This document shows positions 35,055 through 57,780 of a stretch of DNA of 64,000 nt, one piece after another (the stretch's first letter is position 1; each line of letters opens with the position of its first letter). A program made the position numbers and the translations under genes. The stretch lies in NCBI RefSeq assembly GCF_016811075.1, contig NZ_JAFBGL010000011.1, forward strand, positions 62,001-126,000. The letters are read 5' to 3'. Source of the DNA: Oceaniferula flava (GTDB lineage Bacteria > Verrucomicrobiota > Verrucomicrobiia > Verrucomicrobiales > Akkermansiaceae). The notes under the pieces are model-generated. The model worked only from the letters and a program-made list of their open reading frames with translations, was not told where the DNA came from and searched no databases.

Positions 35055-35336
35055 ATGAAACCATCGATCGAAATCGAATACTGCACCGGCTGCCGCTGGC
35101 TGCTGCGCGCCGCATGGACCGCGCAGGAGCTGCTGACCACGTTTGAAGATGAGCTGGGGTCGGTCACATTGAAACCCTCCGAGGTCAGTGGCGGTTTTTT
35201 TGTCCGGGCCGATGGCACCATGCTCTGGGATCGCAAACAGCGCGGTGGCTTTCCTGAGATGAAAGAGCTCAAGCAAATCATCCGTGACCACATCGCCCCC
35301 GAGCGAGACTTAGGTCACAGCGACAAAGACGCTTGA
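35055..35336 (+). CDS. SelT/SelW/SelH-like (Rdx family) protein with CxxC
   Basis: 93 residues with the thioredoxin-like redox motif C10-T-G-C13 followed by RWLLRAAWTAQELL and the FEVTL-like KPSEVSGGFFV segment, as in Rdx proteins. Eukaryotic relatives carry selenocysteine at the second position; here it is Cys. Probably a cytoplasmic thiol redox protein of unknown partner. It starts 11 bp after the carboxyltransferase stop, and its own stop is followed at once by the 186-bp repeat element. Confidence 0.85.
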   Translation: MKPSIEIEYCTGCRWLLRAAWTAQELLTTFEDELGSVTLKPSEVSGGFFVRADGTMLWDRKQRGGFPEMKELKQIIRDHIAPERDLGHSDKDA

Positions 35337-35522
35337 GGTAGGGTTGTTTGGCTCAAACAACCGGATCAGAGGCATTCATCGTCACTGACTAGAAAGCTTT
35401 CCAACCGCAAAGAAGCTCCCACCGCATCCGCGAGGTATGTAATCCACGAGGAGTAGCGACGCGCCGCTGTGATGACCTGCCGCGGACTCACCATCCGGCT
35501 GTTTGGGCCAAACAGCCCTACC
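35337..35522. repeat. 186-bp inverted-repeat element, copy 1
   Basis: The unit begins GGTAGGGTTGTTTGG and ends CCAAACAGCCCTACC. Its two ends are imperfect ~29-bp inverted repeats, and each end is itself a hairpin (GTTTGG / CCAAAC). The same 186-bp unit recurs at 35660 with about 12 differences. It carries no plausible gene. The 5' edge directly follows the TGA stop of the Rdx gene. It resembles REP/REPIN- or MITE-like elements. Confidence 0.93.
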
Positions 35523-35577
35523 GTTGCTGTTGGTGTTGGAGGAGGTCAATGGTTTTGGGGAGCACATGGCTTCGTCT
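35518..35577 (-). pseudogene. Decayed 3' end of a hydrolase paralogue
   Basis: In the 137-bp spacer between the two element copies, minus-strand codons next to element copy 1 read RRSHV, then LPKTIDLL and QHQQQR with a stop. The intact hydrolase, next to element copy 2, ends GRSHISTFL...AIAKAIDFLDRQLQR and a stop. R-S-H, K-x-ID-L and the terminal R agree, with a gap of about nine residues. The stop codon in both cases is formed by the element edge (GGTAGGG). So this is what is left of a second hydrolase gene. Confidence 0.6.
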
Positions 35578-35659
35578 GTAGGATGTGATGAAGCGAGGCC
35601 GTTATCGTTGTTATTCCTGAACCATCGCACATGACACTCGCACCCCCAGGTGTCTTGTT

Positions 35660-35845
35660 GGTAGGGTTGTTTGGCCCAAACAACCGGATCAGAGGCATTC
35701 AGCGTCACTGACCAGAAAGCTTTCCAACCGCAAAGAAGCTCCCACCGCATCCGCGAGGTATGCAGCCCACGAGGAGTAGCGACACGCCGCTGTGATGACC
35801 TGCAGCGGACTCACCATCCGGCTGTTTGGGCCAAACAGCCCTACC
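35660..35845. repeat. 186-bp inverted-repeat element, copy 2
   Basis: Second copy of the element, same orientation, same length and ends as copy 1, with scattered substitutions. Its right end supplies the stop codon TAG of the hydrolase gene (read on the minus strand). Strong symmetrical hairpins at each end may act as a bidirectional terminator between the converging genes. Confidence 0.93.
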
Positions 35846-36710
35846 GCTGCAGCTGGCGGTCGAGGAAATCGATGGCTTTGGCGATCGCTCTTCCTGGAAA
35901 CAAAAAGGTGCTGATGTGGCTGCGACCTTTGACCCAGTGGATCTCGTGATGGACCTGATGGTTTTCTAACTTCGGCAGCAAACGATAGGTATGTTCGGGG
36001 GGCACGATCTTGTCCTTGGTCCCCTGATAGATGAAAAGCGGTGGCGTCTCCGGCGTCACTTGATTCATGGGCGAGGCGGATCGGTAGATGTCCGCGTCCT
36101 CCACGAAGGTCTTGCCGATGAATACCGGCACGACGGGGAAGTCCGGGTCGAGTGTTAGATCTTGTGGAGTAGCGCCGGCAACGACAGCCTGGATCGCCAC
36201 CCCATCCGGAGGCGATTGAAACCCGAGCATTTCCGCCAAGTGGCCACCTGCGGAATAACCATACAGGCCGATGCGTTGGGGATCGAGATTCAGCCGCTTG
36301 GCATGGTCTCTCATCCACTTCAAGGCTTCGCGTAAATCATCCACAGGCGCCGGGTAGTTCCACTCGGGTGCCAGGCGGTAGGTGGCATTCATCACCAGGT
36401 ATCCACGCCGCGCCAGCTTCTTGGCCAGGTGGCTCATCTGGTAGCGGTTATCATTCTCCGCCCAGCTGCCACCGTGGATGAGCAGGACCGCGGGGGTCGG
36501 ATGACTGACTAATGGACGATAGATGTCGGCCCGAACCGCCTGCGGCCAATCGCTCGGCGTGTAGATCACCTCTTTTTCCACCGAGAACTTCACCAACGAG
36601 CGAGCACCTGAGCCCGACCATCCACAGGCGGACATCACCATCGAAGACGAGCCAATCACCAGCTGGGCCAAACCTCGATAGCCAAATCTCTCTGCCAGGG
36701 TCCATCGCAT
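35841..36710 (-). CDS. Alpha/beta hydrolase (esterase/lipase type), predicted lipoprotein
   Basis: 289 residues from the ATG that gives MRWTLAERFGYRGLA; an ATG nine codons earlier (36737) is also possible. A lipobox MSAC follows a hydrophobic stretch. Hydrolase blocks: oxyanion hole LLIHGGSWAEN, nucleophile elbow GYSAGGHLA (Ser153), acid in GTKDKIVPP (Asp233) and His265 in GRSHIS. This is the HGG-type carboxylesterase/acetylhydrolase family. It would cleave short ester groups, perhaps acetyl groups on polysaccharides. Its last codon and stop lie at the edge of the 186-bp element. Confidence 0.85.
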   Translation of the reverse strand: MRWTLAERFGYRGLAQLVIGSSSMVMSACGWSGSGARSLVKFSVEKEVIYTPSDWPQAVRADIYRPLVSHPTPAVLLIHGGSWAENDNRYQMSHLAKKLARRGYLVMNATYRLAPEWNYPAPVDDLREALKWMRDHAKRLNLDPQRIGLYGYSAGGHLAEMLGFQSPPDGVAIQAVVAGATPQDLTLDPDFPVVPVFIGKTFVEDADIYRSASPMNQVTPETPPLFIYQGTKDKIVPPEHTYRLLPKLENHQVHHEIHWVKGRSHISTFLFPGRAIAKAIDFLDRQLQR

Positions 36711-54864: not shown

Positions 54865-55810
54865 GGCGTCTGACCAGCTCACACCAAGCCTGCTTTTCCT
54901 GATGATAGGAAAACAGCGGTGCACGGGTGGATATTTGCTGTTTCAAGTGCTGGTAAAAGTCCGAATCATTAGCAGTGCGAGCCAGGATTTCGATCAGCAC
55001 AGCGGGGTCCTCCAGAGGAAAAAGGCCGTCGTAATCGCTGCCGAGCATGCCGATATTTCCAGCAATCTTACTCGCGATGACGGGCAGCCCGATGACCACC
55101 GCTTCGCAGATTGCATTGGCGCCGCCTTCTTCTGTGGAGGTGTTGAGTAGGACGTGGGCGGTTTTCATTTTCTCAATAACCACATCGTGATCCTGCACTC
55201 CGTGGAAATGGAAATTCGGACACTCGGCGGCGGTTTGTTCCAGCGCCGACTGATACTCGCCCCCTTGCCCAAACGCGTGGAACTGCATGGGCGACGACTG
55301 CAGTCCACGCACCGCCTCCATCATCAAAGCCGGGTTCTTCTCGGCGCGAAAGTTTCCGGCGATGATCACTTCCAGCTGCCCCTTTGGCCGATGCTCCATG
55401 GTATCAGGCAAGCGCACGCTGGGGTAAATGACCTGGGTTTTGGCCGTCAAATCCTCGGGGATGCGATGGGAAAAGCCTTCGTGTAGGGAGACAATGGCAG
55501 TGCTGACGGCCAGCGCCTTGCGGGTGTCCGACTCAGCGTCCTCCATCTCCGGATGGTTCACATCGGTGCCGGTCAGCAGGGTGACAATCGGACTTTTCGG
55601 CTGGCGCTGGTGGAAGGCGAAGATTTCGCCCGCGCTCTTCCTCGCATTGAGCGCGATCAGGCAGCCGGCGGAAATTGGAGCATCACCACGCTCGTGAATG
55701 GCCACGTCTAGGCCACCGTCACGCAGCAGCTCGGTCATCCGTTTCGCGGTCACGGCATTCCCCTGGCTGCGTTGTCGGGGATAGGGCGAGTGGAGGAGAA
55801 CGGCGGGCAT
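54848..55810 (-). CDS. senB: SenB-like glycosyltransferase (selenosugar synthase family, TIGR04348 type)
   Basis: 320 residues, GT-B fold. Blocks resemble the SenB family: SQGNAVTAKRMTELL, LIALNARKSAGEIFAFH, IVTLLTGTDVN, IAGNFRAEKNPALMMEA and EEGGANAICEAVVIGLPVIASKIAGNIGMLG. SenB makes a selenosugar from selenophosphate and a UDP-sugar in selenoneine synthesis. Its usual partners, SenA (formylglycine-type enzyme) and SelD, are not in this window, so another glycosyl transfer is possible. Convergent and overlapping by 17 bases with the adhesin gene. Assignment rests on memory of the family pattern. Confidence 0.6.
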   Translation of the reverse strand: MPAVLLHSPYPRQRSQGNAVTAKRMTELLRDGGLDVAIHERGDAPISAGCLIALNARKSAGEIFAFHQRQPKSPIVTLLTGTDVNHPEMEDAESDTRKALAVSTAIVSLHEGFSHRIPEDLTAKTQVIYPSVRLPDTMEHRPKGQLEVIIAGNFRAEKNPALMMEAVRGLQSSPMQFHAFGQGGEYQSALEQTAAECPNFHFHGVQDHDVVIEKMKTAHVLLNTSTEEGGANAICEAVVIGLPVIASKIAGNIGMLGSDYDGLFPLEDPAVLIEILARTANDSDFYQHLKQQISTRAPLFSYHQEKQAWCELVRRLTVGR

Positions 55811-55929
55811 GAGGTGCTGACTCTCGCCGATGATTGGGAAAAAACAAGCCGCAGCCGTCCCAGCCTACCCCTAAGGTGTCATGATTTTTCCTGTTCAGCC
55901 CACAAGCGATTCGTTAGGTCTGCTTAGTC

Positions 55930-57780
55930 ATGTTCAAGTTTGCCCTCCTCGCCTTCCTCTGTGTCAGCTCTGCCTTTGCAGCCGACAAGCCCAACATCCT
56001 CTGGATCGTCTCCGAGGATAACGATTACCATTGGCTCGGTTGCTACGGCAGCGAGGAGGCACAGACACCGCACCTCGACCAACTGGCCAGCAGCGGCGCA
56101 CTTTTCACCCACGCATACTCCAATGCCCCGGTGTGCGCCGTGGCGCGGTCGACCATCCTCAACGGCGCCTACGCCATCACCCAGGGAACCCAGCACATGC
56201 GCAGTCGCCACCCGATCCCCAACCGCTACCAGCCCTACGTTTCCTACCTGAAAAACGCCGGCTACTACTGCTCCAACCGCTCAAAAACCGACTACAACTT
56301 CCGCGGCGACGACAAAGCCATCTGGGACGAGTGCTCAAAAAAGGCGCACTACAAAAACCGCCCCGAAGGCCAGCCCTTCTTCTCCATTTTCAACCTCACC
56401 GTCTCCCACGAGAGCAATTTGTTCCCCGACAAGATCAAATCTAACCGCAAAAAAGGCCGCATTCCAGAGACACCGCGAATTTCTCCGGACAAGGTCATCG
56501 TGCCGTCCTACCTGCCCGATCTCCCTGAGATCCGCAGAGACATCGCCATCTACCACGACACCATCACTGCGCTCGACACCGAGGTGGGCGAAATCCTCGC
56601 CGAGCTGAAAAAGCGCGGCCTTGCCGAGGACACCATCGTCTTCTACTACGGCGACCACGGCGGCATCACCCCGCGCGGCAAACGCTACCTCAAGGACACC
56701 GGTGTCCGCATTCCCATGCTGGTCCACGTGCCTGAGAAATGGAAATCCCTGACCCCATTCGAACCCGGCCAGAAGGTGGGAGAGCCCGTTTCCTTCGTCG
56801 ACCTCGCCCCCACCCTGCTGTCTCTCATTGGCGAGCAAAAACCCGCGCACATGCAAGGCCGCGCCTTCCTCGGCAGCCATCGCGTTGCCCCGGCGAAAGA
56901 CGCAACCGTGCTCCTGTTCGCCGATCGATTCGATGAAATCTACGGTATGCGCCGTGGGCTCACCGATGGCCGATGGAAATACATCCGTCGCTTCAGCCCG
57001 AATCTCCCCGCCGCTCCCTACAGCTACTATCAGTTCGGCCAGGCTGGCTGGACTGCATGGCAGAAGGCGTGGAAAGAAGGCAAACTCACAGGTCGATTCA
57101 AGGAGATCTGGGAGCCAAACCAGCCGGTGGAGGAGCTCTTCGACACCCAGTCGGATCCATGGGAAATCAACAACCTCGCCAGCGACCCGGCCCACGCCGA
57201 GCAGCTCGCCGCGATGCGCTCGCGCCTGAAAGCGACCATGGTCGAGGTCAACGACAGCGGCCTGATCCCCGAGCCGATGTTCGCCAGGCTCTCGCCGAAC
57301 AAAGCGATAACCGATTACATGATCAGCCGCAAAGACAGCTTGCCGACACTGGTCGACCTCGCCTTTACCGCTTCGGCCAGAGACGTGAAGAAGCTCGACC
57401 AGTTGATCGCCCTAACCAGCTCGCCTGACCCGGTCACCCGCTACTGGGCTGCTCACGGCTGCCTTGTGTTAGGGAAAGCCGCCGCCCCCGCCGAAGCCGC
57501 GCTTACCAAGCTGCTCACCGACGAGCACTCCGTCAACCGGGTCACCGCCGCCCAGGCCCTGTTCGCCATCGGCAAACAGAAAGAAGGCCACGCCGCGCTG
57601 ATCGCCGAGCTGGCTAAAAAGCCGAACGAGTATTCCCTGCAATACCTCATCAACGCCCTGACCATCATCGATGCCCTCGATGACATTCCGCAGCAGTGGG
57701 TGACCGATACGTTGAAAAACAAAAACGCTGGGAAATACATCATCCGTCTGGCGCAAAAACTGCAGCGAGAGCGGCAATAA
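55930..57780 (+). CDS. Exported sulfatase with HEAT-like C-terminal repeats, variant CxVxR motif
   Basis: 616 residues, signal peptide (to about residue 17, SSAFAAD). Sulfatase blocks: PNILWIVSEDNDYHWLGCYG, the modified site C69-A-V-A-R73 in NAPVCAVARSTILNG, SKTDYNF, and FYYGDHGGITPRGK. The third motif position is Val in place of the usual Pro or Ala. The last ~150 residues form HEAT/armadillo-like repeats (VTRYWAAHGCLVLGKAA; VNRVTAAQALFAIGKQ), probably a partner-binding tail. It sits between the SenB-like gene and the A2M gene. Substrate unknown. Confidence 0.88.
   Translation: MFKFALLAFLCVSSAFAADKPNILWIVSEDNDYHWLGCYGSEEAQTPHLDQLASSGALFTHAYSNAPVCAVARSTILNGAYAITQGTQHMRSRHPIPNRYQPYVSYLKNAGYYCSNRSKTDYNFRGDDKAIWDECSKKAHYKNRPEGQPFFSIFNLTVSHESNLFPDKIKSNRKKGRIPETPRISPDKVIVPSYLPDLPEIRRDIAIYHDTITALDTEVGEILAELKKRGLAEDTIVFYYGDHGGITPRGKRYLKDTGVRIPMLVHVPEKWKSLTPFEPGQKVGEPVSFVDLAPTLLSLIGEQKPAHMQGRAFLGSHRVAPAKDATVLLFADRFDEIYGMRRGLTDGRWKYIRRFSPNLPAAPYSYYQFGQAGWTAWQKAWKEGKLTGRFKEIWEPNQPVEELFDTQSDPWEINNLASDPAHAEQLAAMRSRLKATMVEVNDSGLIPEPMFARLSPNKAITDYMISRKDSLPTLVDLAFTASARDVKKLDQLIALTSSPDPVTRYWAAHGCLVLGKAAAPAEAALTKLLTDEHSVNRVTAAQALFAIGKQKEGHAALIAELAKKPNEYSLQYLINALTIIDALDDIPQQWVTDTLKNKNAGKYIIRLAQKLQRERQ

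Follow-up and report, generated by a model that had tools for sequence, protein, structure and literature searches.

Paired 186-bp units between convergent genes of Oceaniferula flava very probably belong to a GTAG-tagged REPIN family with a RAYT of its own

Two 186-bp units that lie between two convergent genes of Oceaniferula flava are very probably REPINs, i.e., doublets of GTAG-tagged REP sequences that are non-autonomous and mobilized in trans by a 147-amino-acid RAYT encoded on contig C3 of the same genome. They were found in a window of 64,000 nucleotides (NCBI RefSeq assembly GCF_016811075.1, contig NZ_JAFBGL010000011.1, positions 62,001 to 126,000 of the forward strand), to which all coordinates without a contig name refer; the host genome is called G000 below. 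The units are members of a dispersed family with compensated hairpin ends, which a single-strand transposase, the RAYT, has very probably spread, and the 3′ end of the neighboring gene that is found between them can be explained without any lost gene.

Two Units Between the Rdx and Hydrolase Genes

Both units (Table 1) run in the same direction, are identical at 178 of 186 positions, start with GGTAGGG and finish with CCCTACC. Their outer 30 bp form inverted repeats that are 90–93% complementary, and each end is also a hairpin of its own, in which GTAG is followed by a 9-bp stem with a 3–4 nt loop and then by GGAT. Copy 2 folds very stably (z of −7.1 for RNA and −6.0 for DNA), and none of 200 shuffled sequences was equally stable. 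The first-pass annotation had described two same-direction copies of 186 bp with terminal inverted repeats of about 29 bp and a hairpin at every end; positions and lengths were found to be right, the repeats measure 30 bp and the hairpins are borne out by folding. It had also placed the element edges against the stop codon of the Rdx gene and within the stop codon of the hydrolase gene. Indeed, the TGA of Rdx (35334–35336) immediately precedes copy 1, while on the minus strand the TAG of the hydrolase (35841–35843, in-frame offset +5) is the TAG of the GTAG that closes copy 2. Rdx and the hydrolase are convergent genes around the element pair. A paralogue of the hydrolase, 55% identical, is located at G000:C2:175834-176637 (L148). 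Scans for tRNAs, Rfam families, promoters and terminators gave no useful result.

Table 1. Features of the element pair and its flanks in the window. R1 is the REP model with which the ends were scored.
Feature	Coordinates	Strand	Remarks
Rdx-family gene	35055..35336	+	PF10262, E 3.5e-29; TGA stop abuts copy 1
Probable REPIN, copy 1	35337..35522	+	186 bp; R1 end matches 49.3 and 52.5 bits
REP end, copy 1 left	35337..35366	+	GTAG + hairpin GGTTGTTTGGCTCAAACAACC + GGAT; R1 E 9e-12 in window
REP end, copy 1 right	35493..35522	-	GTAG + hairpin GGCTGTTTGGCCCAAACAGCC + GGAT; R1 E 1e-12
Spacer part homologous to hydrolase 3′ end	35523..35561	-	28/39 identical, in register with 35846-35884
Remaining spacer, 98 bp	35562..35659	.	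no significant match to either flank
Probable REPIN, copy 2	35660..35845	+	186 bp; R1 end matches 51.5 and 52.5 bits
REP end, copy 2 left	35660..35689	+	GTAG + hairpin GGTTGTTTGGCCCAAACAACC + GGAT; R1 E 2e-12
REP end, copy 2 right	35816..35845	-	GTAG is the TAG stop of the hydrolase; R1 E 1e-12
Alpha/beta hydrolase (BD-FAE), 298 aa	35841..36737	-	PF20434, E 2.6e-43; ends in element GTAG

A Dispersed Family in the Host Genome

A covariance model of the REP end, built from 17 ends, locates about 70 ends (72 at E < 0.01), which are spread over more than 20 places in the host genome. The consensus of these ends is GTAG-GGNNGNTTGG(3-4)CAANCNNCC-GGAT, with the inner motif CCGGATCGAAGCCATTCACC. A structure-aware model was needed because plain similarity shows little beyond the window copies: a search with the 186-bp unit recovers full-length copies in the window only and a few end matches of 29–42 bp elsewhere, and a search with the exact end sequence gives only three matches. 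The private repeat that plain DNA similarity had suggested is ruled out by the ~70 ends of the structure-aware model. A strict pattern, GTAGGGNNNNTTGG..CAANNNNCCGGAT, matches the genome 26 times, against none for the reversed control, and the free bases are fully complementary in 25 of these matches, the remaining one having a single G-T pair.

Pairing of the ends, inverted and with GTAG outside, yields at least 29 elements, which occupy 12 places. Most of the elements stand in head-to-tail arrays of two to four copies, namely four-copy arrays on C9 (two) and, around the RAYT, on C3, three-copy arrays on C2 (two) and C6, and two-copy arrays at C3b and on C11, the latter being the pair in the window; the other elements are single. 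Mean identity between elements is ~91% within an array and ~55% between arrays, and the arrays that were read on contigs C2 and C3 share the plan of the window copies with other stems. Elements are 133–147 bp long, whereas the window copies are 186 bp long and have a different middle. Judged by long open reading frames alone, REP ends lie mostly within 40 bp of the 3′ end of a gene or in the gap beyond it.

Compensatory Change in the Stems

The hairpin is conserved through compensatory change. Among full REP ends, GTAG (GGTAG) is intact in 70 of 74 and TAG in all 74, while the stems differ between loci and comprise 20 different sequences; single elements often bear different stems at their two ends. 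Over 53 distinct rows of an alignment fitted to the structure, 98.7% of the stem cells are paired, with which a MAFFT alignment of 17 ends, themselves picked partly as hairpins, agrees. Both sides have changed in five of the nine stem pairs, and the covariation score is 0.527, compared with 0.100 in shuffled alignments (0 of 500 as high) and at most 0.111 when the alignment is slid.

So much compensated variation among the stems is mildly unusual for a family with a single cognate RAYT, which would act on every one of them. We suggest, tentatively, that one RAYT faced with 20 diverged and compensated stems might ignore the sequence of the stem and read its length, along with GTAG, the edge of the loop and GGAT. 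The stem variants constitute a natural set that could reveal what a RAYT recognizes in a REP hairpin.

The Cognate RAYT

The RAYT (TnpA_REP) of 147 amino acids is encoded at G000:C3:244591-245034 (L029:2592-3035), amid two pairs of family elements and directly flanked by those at L029:2396-2537 and L029:3031-3171. Its stop codon, like that of the hydrolase, is the TAG of a REP. It scores 84.1 bits against NCBIfam NF047646 (REP-associated tyrosine transposase; cut-off, 80 bits), and in a profile together with three other cognate RAYTs it matches the solved TnpA_REP structure 4er8 at 4.8e-12, with the HxH, WQ, Tyr and NP positions aligned. H71/H73, Y124 and W103/Q104 are invariant across the four. 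The other three, in the congeners G001, G013 and G007, are 80, 69 and 43% identical to that of G000 and sit amid ends of the same model in different gene neighborhoods. Around 80 RAYT relatives, most of them from Verrucomicrobiota, the density of GTAG hairpins is 2.40/kb within 400 bp of the RAYT and 0.10/kb beyond, a 23-fold difference.

A search of G000 with PF01797 listed seven Y1 transposases, without the cognate RAYT, which was located by reading the C3 array. The orphan family to which the PF01797 list had pointed was overturned by this open reading frame.

Other RAYTs are encoded in the same genome. A second, of 213 amino acids (L033:1367-2195; G000:C10, ~55752-56580), is flanked by another REP, GTAG-GACAAGTTTGCAACTTGTC-GGCAA, and a third RAYT-like gene, of 180 amino acids (L037:1129-1958; G000:C5, ~90550-91379), by GGAG-CATGGACATTCCTGTCCATG hairpins that make up a third REP family; both are among the seven PF01797 Y1 transposases. 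The RAYT at L036:1432-1980 (G000:C9) scores 82.5 bits, over the NCBIfam cut-off, and no REP hairpin was found alongside it. In L168 and L180, GTAG hairpins accompany RAYT relatives from records labeled Acidobacteria and Bacteroidetes, which may reflect either transfer or misbinned contigs.

Relatives and Empty Sites

Under stricter filters, with which weak matches may be missed, family ends were found in 6 of 13 other genomes of the genus and in 1 of 44 outside it. Downstream of gpmI, the next gene begins at 821 bp in G000, with a four-copy array in between; G002 and G007 have the same next gene after gaps of 292 and 168 bp, respectively, and neither gap holds an element. At the window locus, only the Rdx side can be compared, since congeners lack a hydrolase orthologue: at E 1e-20, the 13 other genomes of the genus gave nothing but a distant match of 30% in G011, and no congener has a hydrolase orthologue or a second hydrolase copy at the locus. 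G008 has retained Rdx (80%) and the gene upstream of it, with no element within ~1.2 kb beyond Rdx. The neighbor of the C9a element was found in one relative, in which the other flank had no match.

Some end pairs in other genomes are arranged differently, with GTAG facing inward and the ends ~15 bp apart, in L111 (G007:C470:3303-3379) and L113/L124 (G005:C169:597-672), whereas G000 pairs face outward.

The first-pass annotation had proposed a REPIN-like element and had looked for support to many copies at gene 3′ ends, a RAYT-type gene in the genome and empty sites in relatives. All three are now at hand, as ~70 ends mostly near 3′ ends, as the RAYT within the family on C3 and as the empty gpmI sites of G002 and G007, which concern another locus of the family, and they support its proposal.

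The Spacer and Alternative Explanations

Anchored at the element edge, the spacer is identical to the last 40 nt of the hydrolase gene at 28 positions, which none of 5,000 shuffled sequences equaled, and compared with other places the 28/39 match has p ~3e-4; without anchoring, the local match is weaker, with 1 of 1,000 shuffles reaching an equal score. The resemblance to the hydrolase 3′ end that was claimed earlier therefore stands for the first ~39 bp of the spacer, past which there is no nucleotide match, while the ‘RRSH’ similarity farther up is suggestive only. That the element and the hydrolase 3′ end were duplicated as one unit is supported by the in-register match from the element edge. 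The further step, that the complete hydrolase gene was duplicated along with the element and this second gene was then mostly deleted, is very unlikely. It would explain the recognizable 3′ end in the spacer, and a full paralogue does exist on C2, but the match is limited to ~39 bp and no congener has a second copy at the locus. Both spacers of the C2 array likewise close with a copy of the 3′ tail of the left neighbor (29/35), and the spacer of the C3b array does so with a stretch of its left flank (19/23). As tandem repetition together with the flanks has also been described for REPIN clusters (Bertels and Rainey, 2011; PMC3116915), a lost gene is not needed. A tandem repeat of the element plus 137 bp, i.e., a 323-bp unit, is enough to account for the spacer. 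The spacer tail has diverged by 28% and the elements by 4%, for which gene conversion between elements or drift of the non-coding copy are our guesses.

The 30-bp terminal inverted repeats, the short length, the lack of coding sequence and the many copies would also suit a MITE of the classical DDE type, which has long terminal inverted repeats, moves as double-stranded DNA by cut and paste and creates target-site duplications. We consider this extremely improbable: every end forms a separate hairpin outside which lies a constant GTAG, the stems drift with compensation while TAG is kept in 74 of 74, no obvious target-site duplication was seen by eye in the 12-bp flanks of 29 copies, and the transposase within the family is a RAYT and not a DDE enzyme. 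The very stable fold, the compensatory changes and the location of most arrays at the 3′ ends of genes could instead indicate a structured RNA or bidirectional 3′-end element that is kept for mRNA stability or for termination of convergent genes, its mobility being past. This, too, is improbable as the explanation, because no Rfam family was matched at threshold, the end hairpins are not followed by a T-run terminator, and the pairing fits equally well with recognition of single-stranded DNA by a RAYT, which is linked to the ends in four genomes; it is compatible with a REPIN origin and does not exclude it.

For the REPIN explanation, direct support comes from the family, its architecture, the compensated hairpins, the RAYT linkage and the empty sites for one array. 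The atypical length and middle of the window copies, the ~55% mean identity between arrays, the comparison of the window locus on the Rdx side alone and the failure of PF01797 to detect the RAYT count against it. By analogy with other RAYTs, we propose that the REP hairpin would form while the strand is single-stranded, that the HUH/Y1 enzyme would read GTAG plus the hairpin, cut and rejoin, and that the REPIN would insert as single-stranded DNA, mostly in intergenic DNA near 3′ ends. One REPIN would have inserted where the Rdx and hydrolase genes converge; a unit of this REPIN and ~137 bp, including the hydrolase-side tail, would afterwards have been repeated in tandem. The copies may still move, or the family may be old or inactive, given the low average nucleotide identity between arrays.

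Comparison with Known Systems

To our knowledge, few REPIN-RAYT families seem to have been described in Verrucomicrobia, to which a clearly delimited one is added here. What is new is the family itself, as GTAG REPs, their dimers, tandem groups and TAG stops have already been published. Like the REPINs of Pseudomonas fluorescens SBW25 (Bertels and Rainey, 2011; PMC3116915), the elements of G000 consist of two inverted REP hairpins as one unit, form tandem clusters with flanks and include a cluster beside their RAYT. In SBW25, however, neighboring REPs are 71 and 110 bp apart and copies number in the hundreds, whereas the copies in G000 are 133–186 bp long and number ~30, mostly in arrays, with 20 stem sequences in one family.

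The likeness extends to the GTAG-tagged REP families as characterized in PMC3733652, which have the GTAG tag, stems of 6–9 bp with alternative complementary sequences, homo- and heterodimers with GTAG outside and tandem groups with flanking DNA, and which occur in Verrucomicrobia (Opitutus terrae). According to the same paper, GTAG REPs supply TAG stops to flanking open reading frames. The first-pass annotation had seen in the element a gene-end module; GTAG does provide the TAG stop, but this is a known by-product of GTAG termini, and any separate gene-end function would be putative. The family of G000 was compared with those families at the level of their descriptions. Finally, the RAYT resembles subclass 2.5 (PMC6006769) in its length of ~150 amino acids, its DH[LF]H, WQ and YI..NP motifs and its flanking REPs, a placement by motifs and length only; the members listed for that subclass are from Xanthomonads and Pseudomonads, whereas the RAYT of G000 is from Verrucomicrobia.
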